53,385 bases of DNA, from NCBI RefSeq assembly GCF_015163655.1, contig NZ_JADEUF010000010.1, forward strand, positions 1 to 53,385. The letters run 5' to 3'. Origin of the DNA: Xenorhabdus griffiniae (GTDB lineage Bacteria; Pseudomonadota; Gammaproteobacteria; Enterobacterales; Enterobacteriaceae). A program made the position numbers and the translations under genes. Positions 16,501 to 50,230 of this stretch are shown here, piece after piece. Position 1 is the stretch's first letter, and every line of letters begins with the position of its first letter. The notes under the pieces are model-generated. The model had not been told where the DNA came from. It did no database searches and worked only from the letters and a program-made list of their open reading frames with translations.

Positions 16501-19500
16501 CGCCTGAGTACGGATGGCTTTGGCCAAATCCGGTGCGATAGAGAGATGGGCTTCAGTAATCAGGTCGTTGTCAGTTTGTACCTTAAGTATCCCAAAGGGG
16601 GCGGTGGGTTCATTAATATCCGCCAGTTGGGCGCGGAAATAAGCCTCGTGGTCGGTGATCGGTACGCTTAAGATTTGGGCGATAAAATTACGGTAAGGCA
16701 GTACCGTTGGCAGTTTCTCCGTCTTGCCTTGCAAGATAAGCGTAATTTCCGCCAAAATCAGTTCCATTGTCAAATGGTCGCTGACCAAATGATGAAAGCG
16801 CAGCGCCAGCAGCCATTCATCTTGGGCCGGATTCGGGGCGATATCCGCGGTAAAGAGAGGAGCCTGGTTCAAATTGATACGGTGCTGGCGTGGATCGGTG
16901 TGAGCCAGTAACTGCGCTGGAATGTCACCCACCGAAGCAGGGATGAATTCACGGACAATCAGTGATGCCTGACGCCAGACCACTTGCACCGGTTGTGCCA
17001 GATCTTGCCAGTAAGCGGCGGTGCGCAGGATATCATGCCGGTCGATGACGTGTTGCAGCGCCGCTAAAAAGGCATCCAGGCGCTCACGGGTATCAAAAGC
17101 AAGTAAACTTTGCAGCAGATAATTATCCCCTTGTGCCTGTAACAAATGATGGAACAGGATACCTTCCTGCAAGGGAGCCAGTGGATAGATATCCTGTACA
17201 TTGCCTGCGCCACCGGGGATCTGCTCAACGAGGGTATCGATCTCAGCCTGAGAAAGAGAGACTAAAGGCAGCATATCGGGCGTGATAGCCGTACAATCTT
17301 CGGGGATACGGTTGGGTGGCACGGCAAAGGCGCAGACCTCACGCTGGATAGCCTGAGCCATATCGGTAAGGACGGGTGAGGAGAATACGCTGCGAATATC
17401 AAGTTGCCAGCCCAGCTTACGTAGTTCTTCGGTTAGGCTGACAATCATCAGTGAATGGCCGCCGAGTTCAAAGAAATGGTCATGGCGGCTGACTTGTTTC
17501 AATCCCAGAAGTTTTTGCCAGATTTGAGCTAAGGCGATTTCTGTCTCACCGACAGGGGCTTCATAGCCGCGAGCAACAACCGCCGATAAATCGGGAGCAG
17601 GCAGAGCCTGGCGGTCGAGTTTACCGTTAGGGGTGAGCGGGAAAGTCTCTAAAGTGACAAAGGCACTGGGCAGCATATAGTCAGCGAGGTGCTGAGTGAG
17701 TTGCTGACGCAGTTTAGCAGGGATCAGTTCAGCCCCCTCTAACGGACGCAAATAGGCCACCAGCCGTTTCTGACCGGGCTCATCTTCACGGGCTAATACC
17801 ACGGCTTCGCGCACGCCGTCACATTGTTCCAGTTTTGCCTCGATTTCCCCCAATTCAATGCGGAAGCCACGCAGTTTGACCTGAAAATCATTGCGGCCCA
17901 GGTATTCGATATTGCCATCGGGTAGCCAGCGACCGAGATCGCCAGTCTTGTACATACGGGCATCAGGTTGCGAAGAGAACGGATCGGTCAGGAAACGTTC
18001 GGCAGTGAGTTCAGGCCGGTTCAGATAGCCTCTGGTGACACCGTCACCGACGATATAGATTTCACCTGCCACGCCGAGTGGAGCCGGTTGACCGTGGGGG
18101 TCAAGAATATAGATCCGCAGATCAGCCAGTGGCTGACCAATCAAACTGCCCCGTCCTGAATAAATATCGGCTTCGGTCAGTTCGTGATAGGTAGCATGAA
18201 CAGTAATTTCGGTGATGCCATACATATTGACCAGACGGGTTTGCGCGGTCGGATTGCGGGCCACCCACGGGACAAGGGTATGTAATTCCAGCGCCTCACC
18301 GCCAAAAATAATGCACCGCAGGGCGTGTTCAGCCACACCCTCCACACCCTGAGCGGCAATCAGTGAACGGAAAGCACTGGGTGTCTGGTTTAAGATCGTG
18401 ACGTGTTCACGGCACAATAGCGAATAGAATAGCTGCGGTGAACGGGCACATTCGGCTGAAATAACGACCAACCGACCGCCGTAAGCTAAAGCCCCCCACA
18501 ATTCCCAGACGGAGAAATCGAAAGCAAATGAGTGGAACAGCGTCCAGACGTCTTTATCATCAAACTGGAAACGGGTTTGCGTTGCGGCTAACAGGCGGAT
18601 GACATTGGCGTGTTCAACCATCACCCCTTTCGGCATTCCGGTCGATCCCGACGTGTAAATCACGTAGGCCAGATGGCGGGATGTCAGCCCCAGCGCCTGC
18701 GCGTCTGGATTATCAGCCGGTTGGGCGGCCAAAAACGATTCAGGGTTATTAAGGATATTATCCAGCAAGATCACCGGCACGGTGCTGTCAAGTTTATCGC
18801 ATAATGTGGCCTGCGTCAGTAAAACCACCGGTGCCGCATCATCCAGCATATAGGTCAAACGCTCGGCGGGATAAGCGGGATCGAGCGGGACATAAGCACC
18901 ACCTGCTTTGAGTATGGCCAGTAGCCCCACCACCATCTCCAGACTGCGTTCGACACAAATGGCTACTCGGTCGTCATGGTGGACACCCAGCTCAATCAGG
19001 TGATGGGCCAGACGATTAGCATGACGGTTCAATGCCTCATAGCTGAGAGACTGATTGCCATAAACGACGGCAGTTGCATTGGGTGTTTTTGCCACTTGTG
19101 CTTCGATTAATTGATGGAGCAGTGTCTCTTGCGGGAAATCAACTTGAGTGGCGTTAAAACCGGTGAGCAGTTGTTGCCGTTCTGCTGCTGGTAAGATAGG
19201 AATATCCCGGATCCGCTGTTGTGGATTGTGAACCAGGGCATCGATCAAACCGCTGATGGCGGTCGCCAGATAGGTATTAATTCGTTCTGGTGCAATTTCG
19301 CTGATAGTCTGCGTCGTGAGCTGAAAGCCGTTCCCTAAATCATCCACTGACAGGGTGATGGGATAGTTAGTGCGTTCCTCTGCGGACAAAGTCCGTATGC
19401 CTGTCCAAATGGTATCAACCGCCTCTGTTTCGCCAGAGGAACTATGACGATAATTGAGCAAGGAGCTGAACAGCGGCATGGGTTGTTCCACGCCACTGCA

Positions 19501-22500
19501 CCGTTGTGCCAACACTAACGGTGTCTGTTCATGTTCCAGCAAGGTGATCAGATTGTGATAGGTATCCTGCACGATGTCTTGTACTGAGCACCCGTCCAGA
19601 GAGATACGCAGGGGCAGGGTGTTGATAAACATACCCAGTATGCGATCAGCCCCCGCGCCGCCTTGCAGGCGACCCAGTAGCACGGAGCCAAACACCACAT
19701 CATCGCGGCCGCTGGTGTGGGCTAATACCTGCGCCCAGGCGACATGGAACAGCACACTGGGACTGATTCCCAGCCGACGCGCTTGAGAGCGAATTGCCTT
19801 CGCTAACGTAGGGTTAAGCGGGAGACGATGTGTGTTGATGGCACTATTATCGCTGGGTACGTTGAGTATGCCGAAGGGGGTGGTGGGTTCATCAATATCC
19901 GCCAGTTGATCACGGAAATAGGCTTCATGCTCTGCTACTGGCACACTTAATGTTTGGGCAATAAAGTTGCGGTAGGGCAGCATGGTGGGTAGTGTTTTTG
20001 CATTGCCCCGTAGGATTTGGGCAATTTCCGTTAAAATAAGCTCCAGGGTCAGATGGTCACTGACCAGATGATGGAAACGCAAGGCCAACAGCCATTCATC
20101 CTGTATCGGATCATGGGCGATATTGGCGATAAACAGTGGGGCGTGATTCAGATTGATACGGTGCTGACGCGGATCGGTGTAAGCCTGCAACTGTGCTGAA
20201 ATATCATCTTGCGCAGCAGTTGGGGTAAAAATCTTGATATCCAGTTGTGCCTGACGCCAAACTACTTGAACCGGTTGCTCCAATCCTTGCCAGAAGATAG
20301 CGGTGCGCAGGATATCATGGCGGTTGATAACCTGTTGCAAGGCCGTCAGAAAGTTATCGAGGCGATCACGGGTATCGAAAGCGAGTAAGCTTTGCAGCAG
20401 ATAATTATCTCCCTGTGTTTGTAACAGATGATGGAACAGGATCCCTTCCTGCAACGGAGATAATGGATAAATATCCTGTACATTACGGGCTCCACCGGAA
20501 ACGGTATCAACGATGGCGTCGATCTCGGCTTGAGAAAGCGAAACCAGTGGCAACATATCGGGGGTAATGGCCGAACAGTCTTCCGGAATAAGGTTAGGAG
20601 GCACCACGAAAGCCTGAGTGTCATGCTGGATAGTCTGGGCCATATCGGTGAGGATCGGCGAGGCGAACACGCTGCGGACATCAAGCCGCCAGCCCAAATT
20701 GCGCAGCTCTTCGATCAGACTGACAATCATCAGCGAATGGCCGCCGAGTTCGAAGAAATGGTCGTGGCGACTGACACGCTCCAGTCCTAGCAGGTCTTGC
20801 CAGATTTGGGCCAACGCGGTTTCTATCCTGCCATGTGGGGGTTCATAACCCTGGGTTACCACGGCAGATGAATCCGGCGCAGGCAGGGCCTGACGGTCAA
20901 GTTTGCCATTGGGGGTCAGGGGAAAATCCGTGAGCGTGACAAAGGCACTGGGCAACATATAGTCAGCGAGATGTTGGGAGAGTTGCTGGCGCAGTTTAGC
21001 TGGTACCAACTCAACCCCCTCCTGCGGTAACAGGTAAGCGACCAGTCGTTTCTGGCCGGGTTCATCTTCGCGCGCCAACACAATTGCTTCGCGCACACCA
21101 TCACATTGGCTGAGTTGGGTTTCGATTTCCTCCAGTTCGATACGAAAGCCCCGCAATTTGACCTGAAAATCATTGCGGCCAAGGTATTCAATATTGCCCT
21201 CGGGCAGCCAGCGGCCGAGATCGCCGGTTTTGTACATGCGGGCATCAGGTTGCGAAGAGAACGGATCGGTCAGGAAACGCTCAGTAGTGAGTTCAGGGCG
21301 ATTCAGATAACCACGCGCCACACCGGCACCGGCAATATAAATTTCCCCTGCCACACCACGAGGAACGGGCTGGCCGTGTGCATCCAGAATATAAATTCGG
21401 GTATTGGCGATCGGGCGGCCAATTGGTGGCGGATTATCTGTTGCACTCTCATCGGAAGAGATACAGGGGTAGAGTGTGGCACAGACCGTGGTTTCCGTTG
21501 GTCCATAGGCATTAAGCATTTGCCGCCCGGGTGACCAGCGTTTGACCAGGGTTGGCGGACAAGCTTCTCCCCCTACCAGTAGGGTTTGCAAGGTATCGGG
21601 CAGGGAATCCATCGCAGCCAACGCAGTCGGTGACAAGAGAATATGGCTGATAGCCTGATCGGTTAAGTAGCGAGACAGTATGGCTCCCGGCAACAAATGA
21701 GTTCGTTTGGCCAGATAGAGACGAGCACCCGCTATTAAAGCCATACAACATTCCCAGATACTGGCATCGAAGCTGTTTGAAGCAAACTGTAAGACGCGAC
21801 TGTCGGTGGTGAGTGACAGGGTATGTTGCTGGGTGGCTATCAAATTGCACAGGCTTTGATGTTCGACCATTACCCCTTTCGGTTGCCCGGTTGAACCGGA
21901 AGTATAAATAACATAGGCCAGATGATGAGGCATTAACTCCAAAGCTTGAGGATTTGGGTTATCAGTGGGTTGGTTTGCCAGGCACGGTTCAGGGTTATCC
22001 AGTAAGACGGTGGGGAGGGTGTTAAACTGAACGAACCATTCTGACTGGGTCAGCCCTGATTGGGTCAGTAAAGCCACCGGAGCGGCATCATCCAGCATAT
22101 AGGCCAGTCGTTCGGACGGGTAGGCCGGATCAAGCGGCACGTAAGCCCCGCCCGCTTTAAGGATAGCCAGAAAACCGACTATCATTTCCAGACTGCGTTC
22201 GGCACAAATAGCGACACGATCATCCGGATGCACACCCAACGCAATCAGATAATGGGCCAACTGATTGGCGCGGTGGTTTAATTCACCATAGCTCAGTGTC
22301 TGGTCTTCGTAGATGACAGCAAGGGTATCGGAATGCTGTGCGGCCCGTGCCTCAATGAGTTGGTGAATCAATGCTGCTTGTGGGAAATCAATTTGGGTGG
22401 CATTGAAGTCAACCAGCAGTTGTTGCCGTTCTGATGCGGGCAGCATCGGTAACGTGGCAATAAGTTGGGTGTCATCCGTCACCATGGCGGTTAGCACATT

Positions 22501-23886
22501 GTTGAAATAACCGGCTATCCGCTCAACGGTGGCGGCATCAAATAAATCGGTAGCATATTCCAGCTCACCGACCAGACCGGCCTCGGTTTCACTCAGTGAT
22601 AAGGTTAAGTCAAAATGAGTACTGTGATGTTCCTGAGCAATCGTTGTCAGTTGTAACCCCGGCAGGCTCAACTCTTGGGCTGGGGTGTTGTTTAAGGCCA
22701 GCATCACCTGAAAGAGCGGGTTGTAGCTTAAACTGCGTTCCGGCTGGAGCGCTTCCACCACCTGCTCGAAAGGCAGATCCTGATGACTATAGGCGGCCAG
22801 CGCACGCTCCCGCACCTGGGCCAGCAAATCTGTCACACGGAAGTTATCATGGCAGGAGATACGCAAGGCCAGCGTATTAACAAAGAACCCCATCAACCCT
22901 TCCAGTTCCTGGTGTGGGCGGTTAGCGACGGGGGTGCCAATAACAATATCATTCTGCCCACTGAGCCGGGCCAGTACCAGACCCCAGGCACTGAGCACTG
23001 TCATAAACAAGGTAGTATGATGACGTTGCCCAAGTTCTTTCAGTGAAGCCAATAAGTCGGCATCAATGTGCACTGGCACTTGGTTGCCCGCATAGGTTTG
23101 TACTGCCGGACGTGGCCGGTCGGTTGGGAGGGTGAGTAAGGCCGGCGCATCAGCAAGCTGGGAGCACCAGAAATCACGTTGTTCTGTGAAGGCGGTGCCT
23201 TGTAACTGCTCCTGTTGCCAGACCGCATAATCAGCATACTGGATCGGCAGGGGCGGCAAAGGATCAGGCTGGCCGTCAAGGGCCGCACGGTAAAAGGTGA
23301 CCAGTTCTTGCACCAGTACACCGATGGACCAGCCGTCAGTGATAATGTGATGCAGGGTCAGCAACAGCACATGTTCGTCGTCGGCCAGTTGCAGCAGTTG
23401 AGCACGGATCAGCGGTCCCTGGGTAAAATCGAAGGGTGCCTGTGCCTCGCTATCGGCCAGTTCGGCAACACGCTGGGTGTGCAAAGCGGGATCGAGCAGG
23501 CGCAGGTCGTGGCAGGACAGGGCAAAACCAATGTCAGCCGGATCGATATGCTGGCGGGGCTGGCCTTCTACCAGAACAAAACGGGTACGCAGGCTTTCAT
23601 GACGGGCAATCAGGCGATCCAGTGATGCTTTCAGCGCAGGGTAGTCGAGCTGGCCAGTGAGGCGTAATGACACTGGCAGATGATAAGCCTGACTGGCTGC
23701 CGGATCGAGCTGGCTGATAAACCATAGCCGCTGCTGAGCAAAAGAAAGCGGCAGGGGCTGATGCCTGTTCGCGGGTTTAATGAATGCCGGTTGCTGTTGT
23801 CCCTCGCGAGCTTTCAGTTGTTCTTCAAGTCTTTTCTCCAAAACCGCACGTTTCAACTCATCGATATTCATATTGATCTTCGTCAT
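5908..23886 (-). CDS. Five-module nonribosomal peptide synthetase with tandem thioesterases
   Basis: 5992 residues, modules 8-12 of the central assembly line. Order: N-terminal docking-like helix (1-30), C-A-T, C/E-A-T, C/E-A-T, C/E-A-T, C/E-A-T, TE, TE. Carrier serines in GGHSL lie near residues 1050, 2142, 3226, 4305 and 5399; TE serines are S5532 (GWSIGG) and about S5803 (GHSFGG). The first condensation domain has HHIITDG (LCL type). The other four carry both HHLLxxxGD and FHHLVSDH, the signature of dual epimerisation/condensation domains. Hand-read pockets: DAWLLGAVCK, DFWNIGMVHK (Thr), DAWLLGAVCK, DAKDLGVVDK (Glu), DTSDIGSVIK. ATG overlaps the stop of the upstream NRPS gene as ATGA, with GGAGGC ahead of it, implying translational coupling. 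The last gene of its operon. The product is a D-rich peptide chain released, probably cyclised, by TE-TE. Confidence 0.95.
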   Translation of the reverse strand: MTKINMNIDELKRAVLEKRLEEQLKAREGQQQPAFIKPANRHQPLPLSFAQQRLWFISQLDPAASQAYHLPVSLRLTGQLDYPALKASLDRLIARHESLRTRFVLVEGQPRQHIDPADIGFALSCHDLRLLDPALHTQRVAELADSEAQAPFDFTQGPLIRAQLLQLADDEHVLLLTLHHIITDGWSIGVLVQELVTFYRAALDGQPDPLPPLPIQYADYAVWQQEQLQGTAFTEQRDFWCSQLADAPALLTLPTDRPRPAVQTYAGNQVPVHIDADLLASLKELGQRHHTTLFMTVLSAWGLVLARLSGQNDIVIGTPVANRPHQELEGLMGFFVNTLALRISCHDNFRVTDLLAQVRERALAAYSHQDLPFEQVVEALQPERSLSYNPLFQVMLALNNTPAQELSLPGLQLTTIAQEHHSTHFDLTLSLSETEAGLVGELEYATDLFDAATVERIAGYFNNVLTAMVTDDTQLIATLPMLPASERQQLLVDFNATQIDFPQAALIHQLIEARAAQHSDTLAVIYEDQTLSYGELNHRANQLAHYLIALGVHPDDRVAICAERSLEMIVGFLAILKAGGAYVPLDPAYPSERLAYMLDDAAPVALLTQSGLTQSEWFVQFNTLPTVLLDNPEPCLANQPTDNPNPQALELMPHHLAYVIYTSGSTGQPKGVMVEHQSLCNLIATQQHTLSLTTDSRVLQFASNSFDASIWECCMALIAGARLYLAKRTHLLPGAILSRYLTDQAISHILLSPTALAAMDSLPDTLQTLLVGGEACPPTLVKRWSPGRQMLNAYGPTETTVCATLYPCISSDESATDNPPPIGRPIANTRIYILDAHGQPVPRGVAGEIYIAGAGVARGYLNRPELTTERFLTDPFSSQPDARMYKTGDLGRWLPEGNIEYLGRNDFQVKLRGFRIELEEIETQLSQCDGVREAIVLAREDEPGQKRLVAYLLPQEGVELVPAKLRQQLSQHLADYMLPSAFVTLTDFPLTPNGKLDRQALPAPDSSAVVTQGYEPPHGRIETALAQIWQDLLGLERVSRHDHFFELGGHSLMIVSLIEELRNLGWRLDVRSVFASPILTDMAQTIQHDTQAFVVPPNLIPEDCSAITPDMLPLVSLSQAEIDAIVDTVSGGARNVQDIYPLSPLQEGILFHHLLQTQGDNYLLQSLLAFDTRDRLDNFLTALQQVINRHDILRTAIFWQGLEQPVQVVWRQAQLDIKIFTPTAAQDDISAQLQAYTDPRQHRINLNHAPLFIANIAHDPIQDEWLLALRFHHLVSDHLTLELILTEIAQILRGNAKTLPTMLPYRNFIAQTLSVPVAEHEAYFRDQLADIDEPTTPFGILNVPSDNSAINTHRLPLNPTLAKAIRSQARRLGISPSVLFHVAWAQVLAHTSGRDDVVFGSVLLGRLQGGAGADRILGMFINTLPLRISLDGCSVQDIVQDTYHNLITLLEHEQTPLVLAQRCSGVEQPMPLFSSLLNYRHSSSGETEAVDTIWTGIRTLSAEERTNYPITLSVDDLGNGFQLTTQTISEIAPERINTYLATAISGLIDALVHNPQQRIRDIPILPAAERQQLLTGFNATQVDFPQETLLHQLIEAQVAKTPNATAVVYGNQSLSYEALNRHANRLAHHLIELGVHHDDRVAICVERSLEMVVGLLAILKAGGAYVPLDPAYPAERLTYMLDDAAPVVLLTQATLCDKLDSTVPVILLDNILNNPESFLAAQPADNPDAQALGLTSRHLAYVIYTSGSTGMPKGVMVEHANVIRLLAATQTRFQFDDKDVWTLFHSFAFDFSVWELWGALAYGGRLVVISAECARSPQLFYSLLCREHVTILNQTPSAFRSLIAAQGVEGVAEHALRCIIFGGEALELHTLVPWVARNPTAQTRLVNMYGITEITVHATYHELTEADIYSGRGSLIGQPLADLRIYILDPHGQPAPLGVAGEIYIVGDGVTRGYLNRPELTAERFLTDPFSSQPDARMYKTGDLGRWLPDGNIEYLGRNDFQVKLRGFRIELGEIEAKLEQCDGVREAVVLAREDEPGQKRLVAYLRPLEGAELIPAKLRQQLTQHLADYMLPSAFVTLETFPLTPNGKLDRQALPAPDLSAVVARGYEAPVGETEIALAQIWQKLLGLKQVSRHDHFFELGGHSLMIVSLTEELRKLGWQLDIRSVFSSPVLTDMAQAIQREVCAFAVPPNRIPEDCTAITPDMLPLVSLSQAEIDTLVEQIPGGAGNVQDIYPLAPLQEGILFHHLLQAQGDNYLLQSLLAFDTRERLDAFLAALQHVIDRHDILRTAAYWQDLAQPVQVVWRQASLIVREFIPASVGDIPAQLLAHTDPRQHRINLNQAPLFTADIAPNPAQDEWLLALRFHHLVSDHLTMELILAEITLILQGKTEKLPTVLPYRNFIAQILSVPITDHEAYFRAQLADINEPTAPFGILKVQTDNDLITEAHLSIAPDLAKAIRTQARRFGVSPSVLFHVAWAQVLAHTSGRDDVVFGSVLLGRLQGGAGSDQILGMFINTLPLRISLTGRTVQDIVQDTYHNLTTLLEHEQSPLVLAQQCSGVELPMPLFSTLFNYRHGPSNETAEGETEAVDTAWAGIRILTAKESTNYPITLSVDDLGNGFQLTALTVSEIAPERITTYLATAISGLVDALIHNPQQTIHDIPILPAAERQQVLADFNTTQTDFPQEALIHQLFEMQTAQHPEAIAVVYEDQTLSYGELNHRANQLAHYLIALGVHPDDRVALCAERSLEMVVGLLAILKAGGAYVPLDPAYPSERLAYMLEDAAPVALLTQSGLVQSEWLVQFNTLPTVLLDNPEPCLSTQPTSNPDAQALGLASHHLAYVIYTSGSTGQPKGVMIEHQSLCNLITTQQHTLALTANSRVLQFASNSFDACIWESCMALMAGGRLYLAKRADLLPGTILSRYLTEQAISHVLLSPTALAAMDSLPDTLQTLLVGGEACPSTLVKRWSPGRQMLNAYGPTEITVCATLYPCVATAADNPPPIGRPIANTRIYILDAHDQPVPHGVTGEIYIAGAGVARGYLNRPELTAERFLTDPFVSQPDARMYKTGDLGRWLPDGNIEYLGRNDAQVKLRGFRIELGEIEAKLTQCDGVREAVVIAREDEPGQKRLVAYLLPQEGSGLVPAELHQQLAQYLADYMLPSAFVTLDTFPLTPNGKLDRQALPAPDLSAVVTRNYEAPVGEREIILAQIWQKLLGLEQISRHDHFFKLGGHSLIIVSLVEELRNLGWQLEVRSVFSSPVLTDMAQAIQYGSHTFVVPPNRIPQNCTDITPDMLPLVSLSQTEIDAIVEQISGGAMNVQDIYPLSPLQEGILFHHLLQSQGDSYLLRSLLAFDTRTRLDNFLDALQQVINRHDILRTAVYWQGLEQPVQVVWRQAPLTIHEFIPTTTVDIPAQLQDYTDPRQHQIDLNRAPLFATDIAHDPVQNEWLLALRFHHLVSDHMTLELIFAEIAQILQGNAKTLPTMLPYRNFIAQTLHVPAAEHETYFRSQLADIDEPTAPFGILNVPNDNSVINEHRLLLDPTLAKTIRSQARHIGVSPSVLFHVAWGQVLARTSGRDDVVFGSVLLGRLQGGAGADHILGMFINTLPLRITLGGRTARDIVQDTYHNLTALLEHEQAPLALAQRCSGVAQPMPLFSTLLNYRHSQPNTNDTVWDGIRLLLSEERTNYPLTLSVDDLGEAFSISIKSVTTIDPARIADYLVTTISNLVEALMNEPQRPVLGLSILPDAEYQQLLTEFNTTRTDFPQGILIHELFEQQAARTPDATAVVFGDFSFSYHELNRRANCLAHHLITVGVRPDDRIAICVERGLEMMVGLLAILKAGGAYVPLDPTYPAERLAYMIDDAAPVALLTQSAFIDMLDCALPDILLDIQSPALFDKGTENNPDAQTLELTPHHLAYVIYTSGSTGQPKGVMVAHRNVINLHTGLNAALALNPPCRIAMNASIVFDASVKIWLQLLSGHTLIIVPEEIRADSQQLWRYFARHLVDMFDCTPIQLQWLLEAGLGTRAGYQPKLALIGGDSIPPSTWSRLQEIETTRFINVYGPTECTVDATLCPVSSALSQPSIGRPIANTQIYILDTQCQLLPLGVAGEIYIGGTGVARGYLNRPELTAERFLADPFSSQPDARMYKTGDLGRWLPDGNIEYLGRNDFQVKLRGFRIELGEIEAKLTQCDGVREAAVIVREDKPGQKRLVAYLLPQEGVELVPAELRQQLTQYLADYMLPSAFVTLDTFPLTPNGKLDRQALPAPDLSAAVTCNYEAPVGEREIALAQIWQKLLGLEQISRHDHFFKLGGHSLIIVSLVEELRNLGWQLEIRSVFSSPVLTDMAQAIQHESHTFVVPPNRIPENCTAITPDMLPLVSLSQAEIDTLVEQIPGGAMNVQDIYPLAPLQEGILFHHLLQSQGDIYLLRSLLAFDTRTRLDNFLDALQQVINRHDILRTAVYWQGLEQPVQVVWRQAPLTIHEFIPTTTVDIPAQLQAYTDPRQHQINLNQAPLFAIDIAHDPVQNEWILALRFHHLVSDHMTLELIFAEIAQILQGNAKTLPTMLPYRNFIAQTLRVPAAEHETYFRSQLADIDEPTAPFGILDVPNDNSVIDEHRLLLDPTLAKTIRSQVRHIGVSPSVLFHVAWGQVLAQTSGRDDVVFGSVLLGRLQGGAGADRILGMFINTLPVRIQLQARTVKQAVQETYQRLSELLDHEQTPLAIAQRCSGVPASLPLFNSLLNFRHSPRDEEAAHSSVWNGIQVLDSEERSNYPLSLDVDDFDDGFVLTAQCSQQINPVRITAYMKTALEGIVAALQYAPEQPIHAIDILPRAERTQLLETFNDNVVSYPQDALIHQLFEQQAVRTPDAIALVFGENELSYAALNRQANQLAHQLIEAGVRPDDRVAICVDRSLDLIIGLYAILKAGAGYVPLDPEYPAERLAYQLSDSKPVLLLTQHPLQGLLPISDIPVWLLDDESHRNNVAKQPIHNPDIQLQPHHLAYIIYTSGSTGQPKGVMLEHRNVVNFIHAQHQTSEPQSGDRILQFATIAFDTSVSDIFPTLASGATLILRPAHIRVPDAEFVDLLNKQKITIMDMPTAFWHQWVQEMMAGRSGFGQYLRTVIVGGEKAELRHLISWQSIPETQSCRWINSYGPTETTVIATTLKVDGTSTLSTDITNNIPIGYPLPNTRIYILDTHGRPVPIGVSGEIHIGGAGVARGYLNRPDLTAEKFVADPFSNQPDARMYKTGDLGRWLPDGAIEYLERNDFQVKLRGFRIELGEIEARLTQCDGVREAVVIAREDEPGQKRLVAYLLPQEGSELVPTELRQQLAQYLADYMLPSAFVTLDSFPLTPNGKLDRQAFPVPDQSAFAVRGYESPIDKTEITLAQIWQDLLGLERISRHDHFFELGGHSLLAIQLLNRMREQNMQVSLTTLFAHPTLCDLALTVKKQFVMPVSPFDANPVPLSPTGTLRPLFLVHETSGDPLVYSPLATLLPPELPVYALQALGIHTLEHPPESIEALAACHIQAIRRLQPQGPYRLMGWSIGGLIAYEIAQQLTRDGETVTFLGMIDSYYHTHKNSDNPSVDEEARRIELIISALHTQKMIGDEEALAELHSLSNLEQVLDHCIERQWLSAGITREDILLRVYTADMITQLDQGYIAQKSALPVHLYTAEELVNSDSWHGWHDIVGHDSVLHPIGGTHFSIMHPPLLNQIVDSITENLPDIPSFDPLVMIQQGTPSISPLFCLPGAGASPSSLLELALSFPAQLPVYALQARGFMIEHHSPYRSVEGAARAYIQNIRQIQPHGPYHLLGHSFGGWIAFEIALQLQAEGEQVSELILIDTDEPDQQGSALKSVNRIETIMELIDIYNMILNQPLPLARQDFANLTTDEQIQYLHSALIKAGLFPAKTPISLLQGIVSVMQANLNTSYIPRDRYEGRVHLVNAEEGDKDERRTRETQWRLLVAELDTMVVPGNHMTLLSAPHVEQWVTRLWQNIEKLSQLNG
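5941..7850 (-). repeat. T-TE-TE direct repeat, copy 1
   Basis: Matches 48561-50470 at a constant offset of 42,620 bp in the same orientation, with only scattered base changes. It covers the last carrier domain and both thioesterases; similarity weakens toward the A domain. Confidence 0.85.
7571..10849 (-). other. NRPS module 12: C/E-A-T, polar or basic residue predicted
   Basis: The C/E domain (HHLLQSQGD and FHHLVSDH) would epimerise residue 11 (Glu). The A-domain pocket reads D235 T236 S239 D278 I299 G301 S322 V330 I331 K. I know no exact match. The acidic D278 with S239/S322 suggests a basic or polar side chain, at low confidence. Carrier serine is near 7690. No epimerisation follows, so the last residue should be L. 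Confidence 0.7.
9917..11240 (-). repeat. Intragenic direct repeat, copy 1 (T and C/E block)
   Basis: A near-identical block to 13151-14474 with constant offset 3234 bp and no gaps seen. It covers the 3' part of the A domain and T of module 11 plus the N-terminal two thirds of the module 12 C/E domain. Differences are scattered single bases. Confidence 0.75.
10850..14086 (-). other. NRPS module 11: C/E-A-T, glutamate predicted
   Basis: Pocket D A K D L G V V D K equals the glutamate code of surfactin synthetase module 1. K239 is the Glu-versus-Gln determinant (Gln variants have Q). The next module begins with C/E, so D-Glu is expected. The C/E domain epimerises residue 10. Its T-C/E block is almost a copy of the neighbouring module's. 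Confidence 0.8.
13151..14474 (-). repeat. Intragenic direct repeat, copy 2 (T and C/E block)
   Basis: Partner of 9917-11240. It covers the end of module 10 A, its T, and most of the module 11 C/E domain. Outside the block the two modules diverge clearly (Leu-like versus Glu A domains), which marks a recombination or gene-conversion tract. Confidence 0.75.
14087..17339 (-). other. NRPS module 10: C/E-A-T, hydrophobic residue predicted
   Basis: Pocket D A W L L G A V C K, the same as module 8. It indicates a large hydrophobic residue, Leu-like at best guess, with no exact match I can vouch for. The C/E domain (HHLLQAQGD, FHHLVSDHLTMEL) would epimerise Thr9. A following C/E domain makes residue 10 D. 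Confidence 0.7.
17340..20614 (-). other. NRPS module 9: C/E-A-T, threonine predicted
   Basis: Pocket D F W N I G M V H K is the classical threonine code, complete at all ten positions. The following C/E domain implies D-allo-Thr. Its hydroxyl is the best candidate nucleophile for lactone formation by the TE pair, as in many cyclic lipopeptides; that last point is inference. Confidence 0.85.
20615..23886 (-). other. NRPS module 8: docking-C-A-T, hydrophobic residue predicted
   Basis: The N-terminal charged helix (NIDELKRAVLEKRLEEQLK) probably receives the C-terminal tail of the preceding synthetase. The condensation domain has HHIITDG and lacks the dual-domain HHLLxxxGD, so it accepts an L-configured residue 7. 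Pocket D A W L L G A V C K. The following C/E domain makes the residue D. Confidence 0.75.
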
Positions 23887-30200: not shown

Positions 30201-33200
30201 GCGGGTACGCAAGCTTTCATGGCGGGCGATTAATTGGTTGAATGCACCGGTTAAGGCCGAACGATGAAGCGGCCCCGTCAGGCGCAATGCCACAGGGATA
30301 TGATAGGCCAGGCTGGCCGCCGGATCGAGTTGGCCGAGGAACCAGAGCCTTTGCTGAGCAAAGGACAGGGGCAACGGCTGGCTGCGATCAGCAACTGGGA
30401 TCACGATCTGCGCCATTGTTGAAGCACCAGTGAGCGTTTGTGCCAAATGCATCAAAACGGGTTGATCAAAAAGTTGCTGTAGTGACAAATCCCGGGCCAA
30501 TTTTTGGTGTATCTGTGTGACGAGTTGGATAGCTAGCAGGGAATGTCCGCCGAGTTCAAAGAAATGATCATGACGCCCCACGCGTTCTAAGCCTAACAAT
30601 GCTTGCCAAATCTGGGCTAAGGTGATCTCTATTTCGCCCACAGGGGCGGCATAATCTTGCGCTACCACTGCTGATAAATCCGGTGCTGGCAGGGCCTTGC
30701 GATCCAGTTTGCCATTGGGTGTCAGGGGGAAAGAAGCCAGCGTGACAAAGGCACTGGGGAGCATGTATTCCATTAAACTGATACTCAATTGTTCGCGCAG
30801 CTCAGCGGGGTTGAGCGTAACGTCCGGTTCTGGAATAAGGTAAGCCACCAGACGCTTATCGCTGTTTTCCTCTTCGCGGGCGATCACTACTGCTTCCTGG
30901 ACGCCTTCACAGTCAACCAGCCGGTTTTCAATTTCGCCTAATTCAATGCGGAAACCGCGTATCTTGACCTGAAAATCATTGCGGCCCAGGTATTCGATAT
31001 TGCCATCGGGCAGCCAGCGACCGAGGTCACCGGTCTTGTACAGGCGGGCATTTGGCGCGGTTGAAAAAGGATCAGGAATAAAACGTTCTGCCGTCAGTTC
31101 CGGTCGGTTGAAGTAACCGCGGGACACACCCGCACCGCCAATGTAAATTTCACCGGCTACCCCAAGAGGCACCGGCTGTCCCTGGGCATCCAGGATATAA
31201 ATCTGGGTATTGGCGATCGGTTTTCCGATGGGAATGTTGTCAACGATACTTGCCTGATGACGGGTATCAAACGTGATGCAACCCACCACCGTTTCCGTGG
31301 GGCCATATTCGTTGATAATGCGTGATTCTGGTGACAGCTCACGCCAAAGTGCAACGACGGATTGGGGAAGTGCCTCCCCGCCGACGATGAAGCAACGGGC
31401 AGGACATGTCCGTTTTTCTGCCAGTAATCCCTTAACTATTGCCGCGAAATGGGTTGGGGTGATCTTAACCAGAGTGGTGGGCGCCATTGAGGGGGATAAC
31501 AATACAGGCACCAATTCAGTCAGCGTCTGTTCTTCACGGATAAGGTGCAGTTTGCCACCACACAGCAGGGGTAAATAAAGGCTGGAGACGGTGGCATCAA
31601 ACGCAAACGGGGATGACACGATACTGTCGGTCGGTCTGGTCGTGACATAATAGCTCAGCCCCCATTGCAGGTAATTTCTAAATCCGGCGTGTTCAACCAT
31701 GACGCCTTTGGGTTGACCCGTTGAGCCAGAGGTATAAATCACATAGGCCAGGTGATGTGAAGTCAGCCCCAGCGTTTGTGGATCAGGGTTATCTGCTGTA
31801 CCCTTGTCGAAAACCAGAGCATCAAGTAACACATGTGGCAGGCGGGTGCCTAGTCTGTCAACCAGTGACGTCTGGGTCAGTAAGACCACCGGTGCGGCAT
31901 CGTCCAGCACATAGGCCAACCGTTCGGGCGGATAAGTGGGGGAAAGCGGGACATAAGCCCCTCCCGCCTTAAGGACAGCCAACAGGCCAATCACCATTTC
32001 CGGGCTGCGTTCGACACAAATGGCGACCCGATCATCAGGACGTACCCCCAATCCAATCAGGTGATGGGCTAACTGATTGGCGCGGAGGTTTAACTCACCA
32101 TAGCTCAGCGTCTGGTCTTGATAGACGACAGCAATCGCATCGGGACATTGTGCGGCTTGCGCTTCAAACAGCTGGTGGATAAACACCTCCTGTGGTAAAT
32201 CCACTTGAGTGGCATTGAAGTCCACCAAAAGTTGTTGCCGCTCCGCCGCCGGTAAGATAGCGATATTCCGTATTGCTTGTTGCGGGTTGTGAACCAAGGC
32301 ATCGACCAAACCGCGGATAGCCGTCGCCAGATAGGCGTTGATTCGTTCTGGCGTAATTTCGGTTATGGTCTGGGTAGTGAGTAGGAAGTCGTCTCCTAAG
32401 TCATCGACTGATAAGGAGATAGGATAGTTAGTGCCCTCTTCTGCGGACAAAATACGAATGCCTGTCCAAGTGGAATCAACCGCTTCTGCTGCATTTAAAG
32501 CGCTATGACGATAATTCAGTAAGGTACTGAACAGCGGCATGGGTTGCTCCACGCCACTGCAACGTTGTGCCAGTACTAATGGGGCTTGTTCATGTTCCAG
32601 CAAGGCGATCAGATTGTGATAAGTATCCTGCACGATATCTTGTACCGTATGTCCGTCCAGCGAGATGCGCAGGGGCAAGGTGTTAATAAACATGCCCAGT
32701 ATTTGATCCGCCCCTGCACCACCTTGCAGACGTCCCGATAGCACGGAGCCAAATACCACGTCATCACGGCCACTGGTCTGAGCTAACACTTGCGCCCATG
32801 CCACATGGAATAGCACACTGGGGCTGACGCTTAAACGACGTGCCTGCGTGCGGATGGCTTTGGCCAGATCGGGGGCGATAGGGTGACGGGCCTCAGCCAC
32901 GCAGTCGTTGTCAGGATGTACCTTGAGTATTCCAAAGGGTGCCGTGGGTTCATCAATATCCGCCAGTTGGGTGCGGAAATAAGCCTCATGATCAGTGGTC
33001 GGGGTAGCCAGGGTTTGAGCGATAAAGTTGCGGTAAGGCAATACCGCTGGCAGCCTCTCCGTCTTGCCCTGCAAGATAAGTGTGATTTCCGCCAAAATCA
33101 GCTCTAAGGTCAAATGATCACTGACCAGATGATGGAAGCGTAGCGCCAGCAGCCATTCATCCTGTGCCGGATTCGGGGCGATATCAGCGGCAAACAGGGG

Positions 33201-36200
33201 CGCCTGATTTAAATTGATACGGTGCTGGCGTGGATCGGTATGACGCTTGAGTTGGGTGACAACGTCACCCGTTGTAGTGGGGGTGAAGGTGTTAACTTTC
33301 AGCGGTGCCTGACGCCAGACCACTTGCACCGGTTGTGCCAGTTCTCGCCAGCAAACGGCGGTACGCAGAATATCATGGCGGTCGATAACCCGTTGCAGCG
33401 CTGTTAAGAAGGCATTGAGGCGCTCACGGGTATCGAACGCGAGCACGCTTTGCAGCAGATAATTATCCCCCTGTGTTTGTAGCAGATGATGGAACAAAAT
33501 CCCTTCCTGTAACGGCGCGAGGGGATAGATATCCTGCACATTGGCACCGCCACCCGGAACAGTATTAACGATGGCATCAATTTCAGTCTGGGACAGGGAA
33601 ACCAAAGGCAGCATAGCGGGGGTAATGGTTGTGCAACCTTCAGCGATGAGATTGGGGGGTACGACAAAGGTGTTGGCATCACGCCGGACAGTCTGCGCCA
33701 TATCAATCAGGACAGGGGCGACGAAGACACTGCGAACGTCGAGCTGCCAGCCCAGATTGCGCAGTTCTTCGATCAGACTGACAATCATCAGTGAATGGCC
33801 ACCGAGTTCGAAGAAATGATCATGGCGCCCAACTCGCTCCAGCCCCAATAATTTTTGCCAAATCTGGGCGAGGGTAATTTCCATCTCACCGATAGGGCTT
33901 GCATAATGGCGTACCACAATGGCGGATGAATCTGGAGCAGGCAGGGCCTGACGGTCAAGTTTGCCATTGGGCGTTAAAGGGAAAGAGGCCAACGTGACAA
34001 AAGCGCTGGGTAACATATAGTCGGCAAGGTGTTGGGCGAGTTGCTGGCGCAGTTCAGCCGGCACCAACTCCACGCCCTCCCGTGGCCGCAGATAGGCCAC
34101 CAGCCGTTTCTGGCCGGGCTCATCTTCACGGGCTAATACCACGGCTTCGCGCACGCCATGACATTGTTCCAGTTTTGCCTCGATTTCCCCCAATTCAATG
34201 CGGAAGCCCCGCAGTTTGACCTGAAAATCATTGCGGCCCAGGTATTCGATATTGCCATCGGGCAACCAGCGACCGAGGTCACCGGTCTTGTACAGGCGGG
34301 CATTTGGCGCGGTTGAAAAAGGATCAGGAATAAAACGTTCTGCCGTCAGTTCCGGCAGGTTGAAGTAACCGCGGGACACACCCGCACCGCCAATGTAAAT
34401 CTCACCGGCTACCCCAAGAGGCACCGGCTGTCCCTGGGCATCCAGGATATAAATCTGGGTATTGGCGATCGGTTTTCCGATGGGAATGTTGTCAACGATA
34501 CTTGCCTGATGACGGGTATCAAACGTGATGCAACCCACCACCGTTTCCGTGGGGCCATATTCGTTGATAATGCGTGATTCTGGTGACAGTTCACGCCAAA
34601 GTGCAACAACGGATTGGGGAAGTGCCTCCCCGCCGACGATGAAGCAACGGGCAGGACATGTCCGTTTTTCTGCCAGTAATCCCTTACCTATTGCCGCGAA
34701 ATGGGTTGGGGTGACATTAACCAGAGTGGTGGGTGCCATTGAAGGGGATAACAATGCGGGCACCAATTCAGTCAGCGTCTGACCTTCACGGATAAGGTGG
34801 AGTTTGCCGCCACACAGCAGGGGTAAATAAAGGCTGGAGACGGTGGCATCAAACGCAAACGGGGATGACACGATACTGTCGGTCGGTCTGGTCGTGACAT
34901 AATAACTCAGCCCCCATTGCAGGTAATTTCTAAATCCGGCGTGTTCAACCATGACGCCTTTGGGTTGACCCGTTGAGCCAGAGGTATAAATCACATAGGC
35001 CAGGTGATGTGAAGTCAGCCCCAGCGTTTGTGGATCAGGGTTATCTGCTGTACCCTTGTCGAAAACCAGAGCATCAAGTAACACATGTGGCAGGCGGGTG
35101 CCTAGCCTGTCAACCAGTGACGTCTGGGTCAGTAAAACCACCGGTGCGGCATCGTCCAGCACATAGGCCAACCGTTCGGGCGGATAAGTGGGGGAAAGCG
35201 GAACATAAGCCCCTCCCGCCTTAAGGACAGCCAGCAAGCCAATCACCATTTCCGGGCTGCGTTCGACACAAATGGCGACCCGATCATCAGGACGTACCCC
35301 CAATCCAATCAGGTGATGGGCTAACTGGTTGGCACGGCGGTTTAACTCACCATAGCTGATCGTTTGTTCCTCAAATACAACGGCGATAGCTTCAGGATGT
35401 TGTGCGGCCTGCGCTTCAAATAGTTGGTGGATCAACGCGTCTTGTGGGAAGCTCTGTTGGGTGGCATTGAATTCCACCAACAGCTGCCGTCGCTCCGATT
35501 CTGGCAGCAGGGGCAGGGCACCAATAAGTTGTGTCTCATCCGCCACCATAGCGGTCAACACATTTGTCAGGTAACCCGCCAAACGCTCAATGGTCGTGGC
35601 GTCGAATAAATCCGTGGCGTAGGCCAGTTCACCGACCAGGCGGCCGTCCTCATTTTCGGCCAATGACAAGGTCAAATCAAAATGGGCACTGTAGTGTTCC
35701 TGCTCAATATGGGTGAGTTGTAGCTCAGGCAAGGCTAACGCTTGTCGTGATATATGTTGTGGTGTGTTGTTTAAGGCCAGCATCACCTGGAAGAGGGGGC
35801 TGTAACTCAGGTTGCGTTCGGGCTGGAGCGCTTCCACCACCTGTTCAAAGGGCAGATCCTGATGGGCATAGGCCGCGAAAGCGTGTTCCCGCACTTGGGC
35901 GAGCAAATCAGCAACACGACTGGAATTATCCAGCGTGATACGTAAGGCCAGTGTATTGACAAAGAACCCGATTAATCCTTCCAGTTCATGATGTGGGCGG
36001 TTAGCAACCGGGGTGCCGATGACAATATCCTCCTGTCCACTCAGCCGGGCCAATACGATACTCCAGGCACTGAGTACGGTCATAAATAAGGTGGTGCGAT
36101 GGCGCTGTCCAAGACGCTTAAGCGCAGTCAATAAGTCTGCATCAAAATTGACAGGGAGCCGGCTGCCAACATAGGACTGCACCGCTGGGCGGGGTCGGTC

Positions 36201-46834: not shown

Positions 46835-48508
46835 TCAACAGATTAAGTTGTGTAGCGTTTGCCAAAACGGGCTTTGTTGTGCTAGCTGACGCTGCTCTTC
46901 AAGCATATTTTCGAGTATTGCCAACGTGGTCAGAGGATTTGCCAGCACGACACGCAAAACGGTTGTGGGTTGTCGATCCCATTGCACGGGTTTGAGACTG
47001 GTATGTGAGACAAAAGATTTTCCGGCGGACCACTGCACCGCTTGGATATTCTGGTTCAGTGCATTAATTGCTTCATGCAATTGCTGTTTCATCTGGTCTG
47101 AACTCTCCCGTAGTGCCTGTAATACCTTTGGCGGCACGTATCGGTAGGTCAACAGGCAAAGCTGTGGTTCACTGATCAACTCGAAATCTTCTTGCTGGCG
47201 GATGAGATTGGCGAATTGTTGTGCTTTCTCGATGCTTGCATCGATCAGGCCAGCCAATCTTTGGCGGCCAAGCAAATGGAAGTTACTGTGTAACATCAAC
47301 GACATTGCACTGCGTGAACCTTCCAAAGTATGGCGCCCCAGATCCTTTGACCCCTTGCGTACAATATAATTAGCATGCTGGGCGATGGCGTTGGTCAGGG
47401 TAGGCTGACGGAACAACACCATACCTGCTCCCATAGGGACATACATTTGTTTATGTGCATCGATCGTGACGGTATCAGCACGTTCGATACCCGTAAATAA
47501 GTGTCGGTAGCGTTCGGACAGCAAACTCGCTCCGCCCCAGGCGGCATCGACATGAAAATGACACTGTTCTTGTTCAGCGATATCCGCCAGAAGATCCAGC
47601 GGGTCAATGGCACCGGTTTCTGTGGTGCCAGCTATTCCGACAATCGCCATAGGCTTGATATTGCGCTGGCGCAGTTTTTGCAATTGTGTGAGCAGAGCAT
47701 CAATGCTGATCCGCCCCTCTCTGTCGGCATCCACTTTTATCAGGGCATCCTGCCCTAATCCAAGAATATCCACCGCTTTTTTCAGCGAATAGTGTCCGAG
47801 TTCCGATACCAAAATAGCTAAGCCACTATAGCCATAATGCATCATCCCCCTGGCTAATCCCTCACGTGCAAGACCAGCAAACTCTCCGTCGGCGGGCATA
47901 AGCTTGTTTCGGCACGCCCACATGGCGGTTAAATTAGCCACGGTTCCACCAGAACAGAAGGTCGCCAGCGCATGATCACTGTTGTGCAGCCACTGTTTAT
48001 AGAAAGTTTCATCACCGCGATACACCAGCTTGTGCATCATACCCAGAACCTGCCGTTCCAGCGCAGTTAAAATATGCGATGTTTCCAGTTTGACCAGATT
48101 CTGATTCAGGGCTGTTACTATCTTGCCAAGAGCAGGCAAATGTCTGGGGAGAGCCGATGTCATGTGACCGACAAAGGCCGGTGATGATACAGGCACAACT
48201 TGATTGAGGATATTTTCGCTCAGATACTGGGTATATGCCCCAGCATCAACCGGAGATTCTGGGATAATCACGGAGGAGAACTGACTTTCAATTTCCGTTA
48301 GTTCGCGTATGGGTTTGTTTAATTCGCGCAGACAATAAGCGACAGGGTCACTAGCAATTTCCGTTTCCAGTCCGGCCAGATCTTCGTCACCGACAGCGGA
48401 AATAAACTGGTTGAGCAGTGCTTGCCATTCTTGCTCATCCAGACAGTGCGTGTTAAGCGTTTTTTTATCCGTTTCGTCGTGATCCAGGCTGTCAGGAAAA
48501 TACAGCAT
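46835..48508 (-). CDS. panP: PLP-dependent aspartate 1-decarboxylase (PanP-like)
   Basis: 557 residues, group II PLP decarboxylase resembling the putative pyridoxal-dependent aspartate 1-decarboxylase family (TIGR03799/PanP), which makes beta-alanine from L-aspartate in place of pyruvoyl PanD. The PLP lysine is K353 in IDAHKQMYVPMG, the cofactor aspartate is D321 in HVDAAWGG, and the ring-stacking histidine is H239. An upstream ATG at 48529 is in frame but has no ribosome site; ATG at 48508 follows AAAGAGG at good distance and is preferred. It begins 46 bp after the stop of the upstream NRPS gene, so both are probably one transcript. Inference: it supplies beta-alanine as a building block for that assembly line, as proposed for the decarboxylase of the xenoamicin cluster. 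Glutamate or diaminobutyrate as substrate cannot be excluded. Confidence 0.82.
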   Translation of the reverse strand: MLYFPDSLDHDETDKKTLNTHCLDEQEWQALLNQFISAVGDEDLAGLETEIASDPVAYCLRELNKPIRELTEIESQFSSVIIPESPVDAGAYTQYLSENILNQVVPVSSPAFVGHMTSALPRHLPALGKIVTALNQNLVKLETSHILTALERQVLGMMHKLVYRGDETFYKQWLHNSDHALATFCSGGTVANLTAMWACRNKLMPADGEFAGLAREGLARGMMHYGYSGLAILVSELGHYSLKKAVDILGLGQDALIKVDADREGRISIDALLTQLQKLRQRNIKPMAIVGIAGTTETGAIDPLDLLADIAEQEQCHFHVDAAWGGASLLSERYRHLFTGIERADTVTIDAHKQMYVPMGAGMVLFRQPTLTNAIAQHANYIVRKGSKDLGRHTLEGSRSAMSLMLHSNFHLLGRQRLAGLIDASIEKAQQFANLIRQQEDFELISEPQLCLLTYRYVPPKVLQALRESSDQMKQQLHEAINALNQNIQAVQWSAGKSFVSHTSLKPVQWDRQPTTVLRVVLANPLTTLAILENMLEEQRQLAQQSPFWQTLHNLIC

Positions 48509-48554
48509 AGTTTGCCTCTTTAGAGTCATTAATAATATCGGTCATGTTTTTCTC

Positions 48555-50230
48555 TCACTTCTGCCATAGGCGGGTTACCCATTGCCCGACATGGGGGGTG
48601 GATAACAGGGTCATATGATTGCCGGGCACAACTATCGTATTGAGTTCTGCCACCAGAAGACGCCATTGGGTTTCGCGACTCCTCCTTTCATTCTTATCGC
48701 CTTCCTCAGCGTTAACCAGATGGACAAGTCCCTTATAACGGGCACGAGGAATATAACTGGTGTTCAGATTAGCCTGCATAACGCGAATAATCCCTTGCAA
48801 CAGCGATATTGGTGTTTTGGCCGGGAAAAGGCCGGCCTTAACCAAGGCACTGTGCAGGTGCTGAATTTGTTCATCCGCGGCCAGGTTAGCAAAATCTTGC
48901 CGGGCGAGCGGAAGCGGCTGATTTAATATCATATTATAGATATCGATTAACTCCATGATTGTCTCAATACGGTTGACTGACTTGAGAGCTTTTCCTTGCT
49001 GGTCAGGTTCATCGGTATCGATAAGAATCAGCTTGGATACCTGTTCCCCTTCCGCTTGCAATTGCAAGGCGATTTCAAAGGCAATCCAGCCGCCAAAAGA
49101 GTGGCCTAGCAGGTGATAGGGACCATAAGGTTGGACTTGTCGGATTTTTTGGATATAAGCACGGGCTGCGCCTTCAACACTGCGGTAAGGGGAATGATGT
49201 TCAGTCGTGAACCCACGTGCCTGTAAAGCGTATACCGGAAGTTGTGCTGGGAACGATAGGGCCAGTTCGAGCAGACTGGACGGGCTGGCGCCGGCACCCG
49301 GTAGGCAAAAGAGCGGCGATACGGATGGCGTGCCCTGCTGGATCATAACCCGTGGGTCGAAGGAAGGCATATCCGGTAAATTTTCAGTGATTGAATCCAC
49401 GATTTGGTTGAGCAGAGGCGAATGCATAATGGAAAAGTGCGTCCCGCCGATAGGGTGGAGCACCGAATCGTGACCGACAATGCCATGCCAGCCGTGCCAA
49501 CTGTCGCCGTTAACTAACTCTTCCGCCGTATAGAGGTGGACAGGTAAGGTGGATTTTTGCGCGATATATCCCTGACCAAGCTGTGTAATCATCTCGGCGG
49601 TATAGAAACGCAGAAGAATATCTTCGCGCGTGATGCCCGCCGACAGCCATTGGCGTTCGATACAGTGATCAAGCACTTGCTCCAGATCACTGAGGCTGTG
49701 CAGCTCTGCTAACGCTTCCTCATCGCCAATCATTTTTTGAGTACGCAGTGCGTTAATGATTAATTCTATTCGCCTTGCTTCTTCGTCTATAGAGAAGTCA
49801 TCACTGTCTTTATGGGTGTGATAATAGGAATCGATCATACCAAGAAACGCGACTGTCTCACCCTCACAGGTTAATTGTTGGGCTATTTCATAGGCAATCA
49901 ACCCGCCAATCGACCAGCCCATCAGACGATAAGGTCCTTGGGGTTGGAGGCGGCGAATGGCCTGAATATGGCAGGCGGCAAGTGCTTCAATCGACATCGG
50001 AGGGTGTGCCAATGTATGGATGCCAAGCGCCTGTAAAGCATAGACGGGAAGTTCAGGGGGTAGTAAGGCAGCCAGGGGAGAATACACCAGGGGATCGCCG
50101 GAAGTTTCGTGCACTAAGAATAAAGGGAGCAAGGAACCTGCCGGGCTGAGTGGGACAGGGTTTGCATCAAATGGGGATACAGGCATGACGAAGTGCTCCT
50201 TAGTAGCCAGGGCCAGATCACATAAGGTTG
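48555..50230 (-). other. Tandem thioesterase region of the right-hand assembly line
   Basis: TE1 (PLFLVHETSG, GWSIGG, GGTHFS) and TE2 (PLFCLPGAG, GHSFGG, GNHMTL) both keep nucleophile and histidine. Compared with the left copy the C-terminus is shortened: it ends TRLWQK through an early TGA and lacks the final nine or so residues, which lie outside the fold core and are probably dispensable. Confidence 0.9.

Follow-up and report, generated by a model that had tools for sequence, protein, structure and literature searches.

Two neighbouring modules of an NRPS gene in Xenorhabdus griffiniae carry nearly identical A-domain cores, and the core of module 4 is a graft from module 5 that has continued to exchange sequence with its donor in all parts but a short stretch around pocket residue 278. 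In the history that we consider best, an A core with Asn278 was copied within the assembly line from module 5 into module 4, where it would have replaced a core of another specificity while the A-subdomain and the downstream parts of module 4 stayed in place. The donor afterwards acquired Glu256, Lys278 and Ile279, which gives the code DASKIGEVG, while the graft stayed DASNIGEVG. The graft and the changes in the donor both precede the split of the two strains compared here, and since that split conversion has homogenised the 1.1 kb cores in each strain, sparing the stretch at residue 278. The edges, the donor, the polarity, the age and the homogenisation are shown by the data, whereas a role of selection in keeping the stretch apart is inferred; to this history as a whole, selection included, we give a probability of about 0.6.

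The window, by which we mean the whole stretch of 53,385 nucleotides that was analysed, contains three NRPS genes, all on the minus strand, and it is in the middle one that modules 4 and 5 carry the two cores (Table 1). The thioesterase stretches of the other two genes are located at their ends. Also, modules 7 and 8, although encoded by separate genes (A3 motifs at 25283 and 21903) and with DPWIMGAVC and DAWLLGAVC, respectively, as their codes, have cores that are 90.9% identical. In a protein of 501 residues encoded at 117-1622, an S-adenosylmethionine decarboxylase is fused to a BpsA_C (branched-chain polyamine synthase) domain, a combination that we find unexpected in Xenorhabdus. At the other end of the window (46835-53385), a PLP-dependent decarboxylase and the C-A-T-TE-TE gene resemble the terminal portion of an adjacent xenoamicin-like cluster; in strain G060, the modules that adjoin the equivalent region have the codes DLYNNALTY, VDTVISFGD and DVQFIAHV. 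Among plasmid records there were 185 matches, none of them above 80% of the query, and the search of named records covered the best 80 matches. Because X. thuongxuanensis is strain 30TX1, protegomycin was a candidate for the product. It was rejected, as excerpts of PMC8163882 describe protegomycin clusters with five or six A domains and a peptide made up of Lys and aromatic residues.

Table 1. Coordinates of the NRPS genes, A-domain parts and pocket codons in the window.
Feature	Position	Strand	Description
NRPS gene	5908-23886	-	Five modules and two TE stretches
NRPS gene	23883-46538	-	Seven C-A-T modules
NRPS gene	48555-53360	-	C-A-T and two TE stretches
A-domain codes, modules 1-4	23883-46538	-	DPWIMGAIC, DAWFLGVTF, DAWWLGGTF, DASNIGEVG
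A-domain codes, modules 5-7	23883-46538	-	DASKIGEVG, DASTVAAVC, DPWIMGAVC
Module 4 A core	34215-35330	-	Graft at the recipient site; N278, ancestral pocket type
Module 5 A core	30963-32078	-	Donor locus; now K278/I279 and Glu at the equivalent of codon 34784
Module 4 A-subdomain	33936-34217	-	Residues 256-350 after A3; common type, not exchanged
Module 5 A-subdomain	30684-30965	-	Divergent, as in orthologous modules 5
Module 4 33-codon stretch	34686-34784	-	Module-specific differences persist in both strains
Module 5 33-codon stretch	31434-31532	-	Glu, Lys278 and Ile279 as in G060; two Val changes in the window strain only
Asn278 codon, module 4	34716-34718	-	AAT; ancestral
Lys278 codon, module 5	31464-31466	-	AAG; derived in the cluster, usual residue of the pocket class

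The initial annotation had described near-identical blocks at an offset of 3252 and interpreted them as the outcome of a core-only exchange. The observation holds and this part of the interpretation is supported: the cores are 97.8% identical and likeness drops sharply beyond both ends, with a 3' edge at 34215 and a 5' edge between approximately 35330 and 35361, the latter about 115 residues ahead of the A3 motif. The A-subdomains are only 73% identical, so that the graft comprises the core alone, with abrupt edges inside the A domain and a module 4 A-subdomain that stays of the common type. Over the 1116 bases from 34215 to 35330, the two cores differ at 25 bases; in a comparison of 371 codons, 22 differ, and the amino acid is altered in six of these. 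As annotated, residue 278 (located by alignment to a PheA fragment) is Asn in module 4 and Lys in module 5, and the adjacent base differences at 34715-34716 versus 31463-31464 were confirmed to affect residues 278 (Asn/Lys) and 279 (Val/Ile). A Gly/Val difference (codon starting at 34688) is also inside the same short stretch, as had been noted, but it is a later change found in the window strain only. Three further amino-acid differences were identified, Gly/Glu (34784), Ala/Val (34757) and Leu/Arg (34358); residue numbers outside the nine code positions were counted from 278 with gaps ignored.

An even spread of differences along the block was named in the annotation as evidence against its reading, and the spread is uneven, with 10 of the 22 differing codons located within 42 codons (P = 0.0024). 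All five amino-acid changes that were attributed to module 5 fall within 33 of the 371 codons (P = 0.00025 under a uniform distribution and 0.00035 when weighted by local variability). This stretch is no general hot spot for variation, as the fraction of residues that differ among module 4 and three relatives is 24% here, the same as in the rest of the core. With dN at 0.081 and dS at 0.139 in the 33 codons, we make no claim of positive selection from dN/dS. An assembly error was considered and rejected, since both cores and the Asn/Lys pair are also present in G060, a genome of the same species that consists of a single contig.

Modules orthologous to module 5 are present in X. kozodoii (L108), X. 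thuongxuanensis (L029 and L109, which overlap and represent one place, as do L034 and L113) and G014 (L110); seven candidates per genome were scored in this genus-wide search, and further copies may exist. The code of the orthologous module is DASNIGEVG, with N278, in all three relatives, and the next module has the code DASTVAAVC, like in the window. The preceding module has the code DFWNIGMVH in X. kozodoii and DLYNNALTY in X. thuongxuanensis and G014, which we take from code tables to be Thr and Ala types, and the recipient position thus holds a different core in each of the three. From 34455-34472 downward, the relatives align contiguously with the window at 81-83% identity. The A-subdomain of module 5 is 83-85% identical to those of the three orthologous modules, as compared to 73% to that of module 4, while 96 of 105 other A-subdomains are no closer to module 5 (overlapping loci counted). 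All ten DATK-type A-subdomains that were measured, two of which represent the same place and from which L033 dropped out, are nearer to module 4, which indicates that the divergent A-subdomain is a mark of module 5 rather than of the pocket class.

The suggestion in the annotation that module 5 is the donor, based on its divergent A-subdomain, is thereby supported. Since both the core and the A-subdomain of module 5 match the modules 5 of the relatives, and module 4 of the relatives has other codes, the comparison shows that the module 5 core was inserted into module 4. The C part of module 4 is 79% identical to module 4 of X. kozodoii, yet 79-80% identical to modules 2 and 6 of the window. 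Because the C and T parts fail to point specifically to module 4 of either X. kozodoii or X. thuongxuanensis, the identity of the ancestral recipient module is based on the contiguous alignment; the C domain of module 4 would be the original one. In G014, the reading frame of the orthologous NRPS is broken twice (coordinates of L110), once in the interval from the module 4 to the module 5 A domain (11878-11959) and once near 19437, about 350 bases past the A3 motif of module 7, and these breaks represent either decay or sequencing error.

With the three relatives as the outgroup, G256E, A265V, N278K, V279I and G288V were assigned to module 5 (five of the six amino-acid differences). The Leu/Arg difference at 34358 is a change in module 4, as Arg is present in all three relatives, although the script scored this codon as ambiguous because the codons differ. 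The search for the ancestral state that the annotation had proposed thus points to N278 in every orthologous module 5. The annotation had envisaged a copied core with a changed pocket, and the amino-acid changes do cluster at the pocket residue. However, with N278 as the ancestral state, the partner that changed is the donor and not the copy, so that the graft kept the old pocket and the donor acquired a new one.

Synonymous divergence is 0.063 between core 4 and core 5, as compared to 0.38-0.39 between these cores and X. kozodoii, and this value taken alone would suggest a recent copy, in line with the view in the annotation of an exchange caught early. This view is corrected by G060, the sole other genome of the species among the 30 genomes of the genus. 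G060 contains both cores, spaced by the same offset; its module 4 has N278/V279 and its module 5 K278/I279. The 3' edge and the 5' zone are identical in the two strains. Glu256, Lys278 and Ile279 of module 5 are common to both strains, while A265V and G288V are found in the window strain only. The shared edges and the shared Asn/Lys pair indicate that the graft and the pocket difference are older than the split of the two strains. In a comparison of 5908-46538 in the window with G060:C1:1955000-2011999 (L128-L130), core identity is 95-97% for modules 4-7, 10 and 11, while the codes of modules 1, 2, 3, 8 and 9 differ, for module 9 as DFWNIGMVH versus DVWHLSLID, and the last module, DTSDIGSVI, is absent from G060.

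After the split, gene conversion has homogenised the two cores in each strain. Over the 1116 bases, core 4 and core 5 differ at 25 positions in the window strain and at 27 in G060, whereas the module 4 alleles of the two strains differ at 31 and the module 5 alleles at 33, meaning that paralogs within a strain are closer than alleles between strains. Of 22 sites with a strict two-against-two pattern, 13 group by strain, 6 by module and 3 show the cross pattern. Judged by the agreement of all three outgroups, the window strain has derived strain-type changes at 35304, 35047, 34932 and 34326, and G060 has them at 35115, 35016 and 34512. Derived sites shared by the two cores in each of the strains show that the exchange of core sequence continued past the split. 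In AU tests, the module tree was rejected for the block without the 33-codon stretch (p = 0.006) and for the left part of the block alone (0.001), and it was unrejected for the right part (0.44). For the whole block, the strain tree was preferred, with the module tree at 0.078, i.e., unrejected at the 5% level.

For the 33-codon stretch itself, which was picked post hoc and compared in two strains only, it was the strain tree that was rejected (p = 0.02). Between the strain-type sites 34896 and 34548 lies an uninterrupted run of module-type sites, made up of the four bases that account for E256, K278 and I279. The run test gave P values of 0.054 with all six module sites, 0.023 without the edge site and 0.083-0.17 by codon, and the segment test gave 0.026. 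Amino-acid-changing bases account for four of the five module-type sites (four of six with the edge site), as compared to 3 of the 13 strain-type sites (Fisher's test, P = 0.047, rising to 0.095 when the edge site is included); the cross sites are omitted from the run, segment and Fisher tests. It is plausible, but unproven, that selection shields the pocket from conversion. The two modules would then select different residues, or one would be stricter than the other, so that selection purges conversions that erase the difference. That conversion keeps the neighbouring A cores interchangeable while selection holds a stretch of about 70 bases at residue 278 apart, and thereby splits specificity, is a tentative proposal to which we give somewhat less than even odds.

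The same history could also have unfolded with no conversion tract covering the 278 stretch by chance, N278 and K278 being neutral or nearly so. We consider this rather unlikely, since strain-type sites flank the stretch on both sides and most module-specific bases in the comparison above alter amino acids, although the statistics are weak (P from 0.023 to 0.17) and a silent module-specific site, 35234, sits within the homogenised left part. In addition, Lys is what position 278 usually carries in this pocket class, and both pockets may accept the same amino acid and thus do the same.

Alternatively, K278 and I279 of module 5 could derive from a very short conversion by a DATK-type core instead of from mutation. 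The joint change of two adjacent bases would fit such an event, AAGATC is present at codons 278-279 of two DATK cores, those of L030 and L114, and the Lys codon is AAG in 8 of 11 other DATK-type cores (L034 and L113 being the same place). None of the 11 cores contains the other amino-acid changes of the stretch (GAA 0, GTA 0, GTT 0), so that the tract would span only a few bases, and conversion of the whole stretch from any of these cores was rejected on the same grounds. A 241-base query spanning this tract matched just the two known places in the genome of the window strain (12 of 12 candidates scored), and the donor would therefore have to be external, which makes this origin improbable. 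Independent copying of the core in each strain, with K278 spread by allelic exchange, would explain why the two cores are alike within each strain, but the strains agree in the 3' edge at 34215, the 5' zone and the six module-specific sites, and we regard such a coincidence as very improbable. A single graft followed by changes in the donor is thus the history that we prefer.

The A-domain core selects and activates the amino acid. Relative to the code D-A/L-T-K-I/V-G-E-V-G, module 5 departs at 239, with S in place of T, and module 4 departs additionally at 278, with N in place of K. In 59 GEVG/AEVG codes from loci L029-L107, drawn from 267 A domains in loci that were picked by a similar core and are thus no random sample, the script reads residue 278 as K in 54, F in 3, L in 1 and N in 1. 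Since KITP can be read in the printed strings of the F and L cases, these look like alignment shifts, which would bring K to 58 of 59, and the lone N278 is the orthologous module of X. thuongxuanensis. We take DLTK/DATK codes with E322 to belong to Asn, and on this assignment module 5 most likely loads Asn; our guess is that the N278 pocket takes a related polar residue or is a looser Asn pocket. In a literature search, DATKIGEVG and DATKVGEVG were matched in one paper each and DASNIGEVG and DASKIGEVG were not, and a search for Lys278/K278 in A domains retrieved nothing relevant.

Both core swaps and the concerted evolution of NRPS domains have been described before, and what the present case offers is an unusually clear order of events. 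According to excerpts of Baunach et al. (2021; PMC8097286), the majority of the NRPS exchanges described there involve the A core alone, with the C-A linker, A-subdomain and T interface remaining native; here too, a core was exchanged and the native A-subdomain kept, but between neighbouring modules of one gene, and with cores still exchanging later. In the wollamide/desotamide system, excerpts of Booth et al. (2022; PMC9205934) describe an A domain whose pocket-bearing part was replaced by intragenomic recombination; the source is likewise intragenomic in the Xenorhabdus NRPS, whereas in wollamide/desotamide the donor is another locus and specificity was assayed. For microcystin McyA2, gene conversion and pocket substitutions each alter A-domain specificity, in different strains according to excerpts of PMC3640908, whereas here both act on the same module pair. 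Excerpts of the literature on gene conversion and concerted evolution of A domains contained no mention of a pocket stretch kept apart within a homogenised core.

The two cores represent a natural near-isogenic pair, 98% identical and in adjacent modules, for which the donor, the ancestral state and the order of events have been worked out, and the effect of N278 versus K278 in this pocket class is thereby directly testable. Excerpts of Medema et al. (2014; PMC4256081) outline a model in which internal recombination homogenises PKS/NRPS domains and lets them escape through functional divergence and stabilising selection. The evidence presented there is cluster-specific branching in domain trees, as compared to two strains, one 1.1 kb core and a short unhomogenised stretch here. 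The module 4/5 pair may thus be a strain-level case of how NRPS domains exit concerted evolution, a step that was proposed as a model, and if our reading is true, one pocket residue would divide the specificity of two otherwise identical cores.
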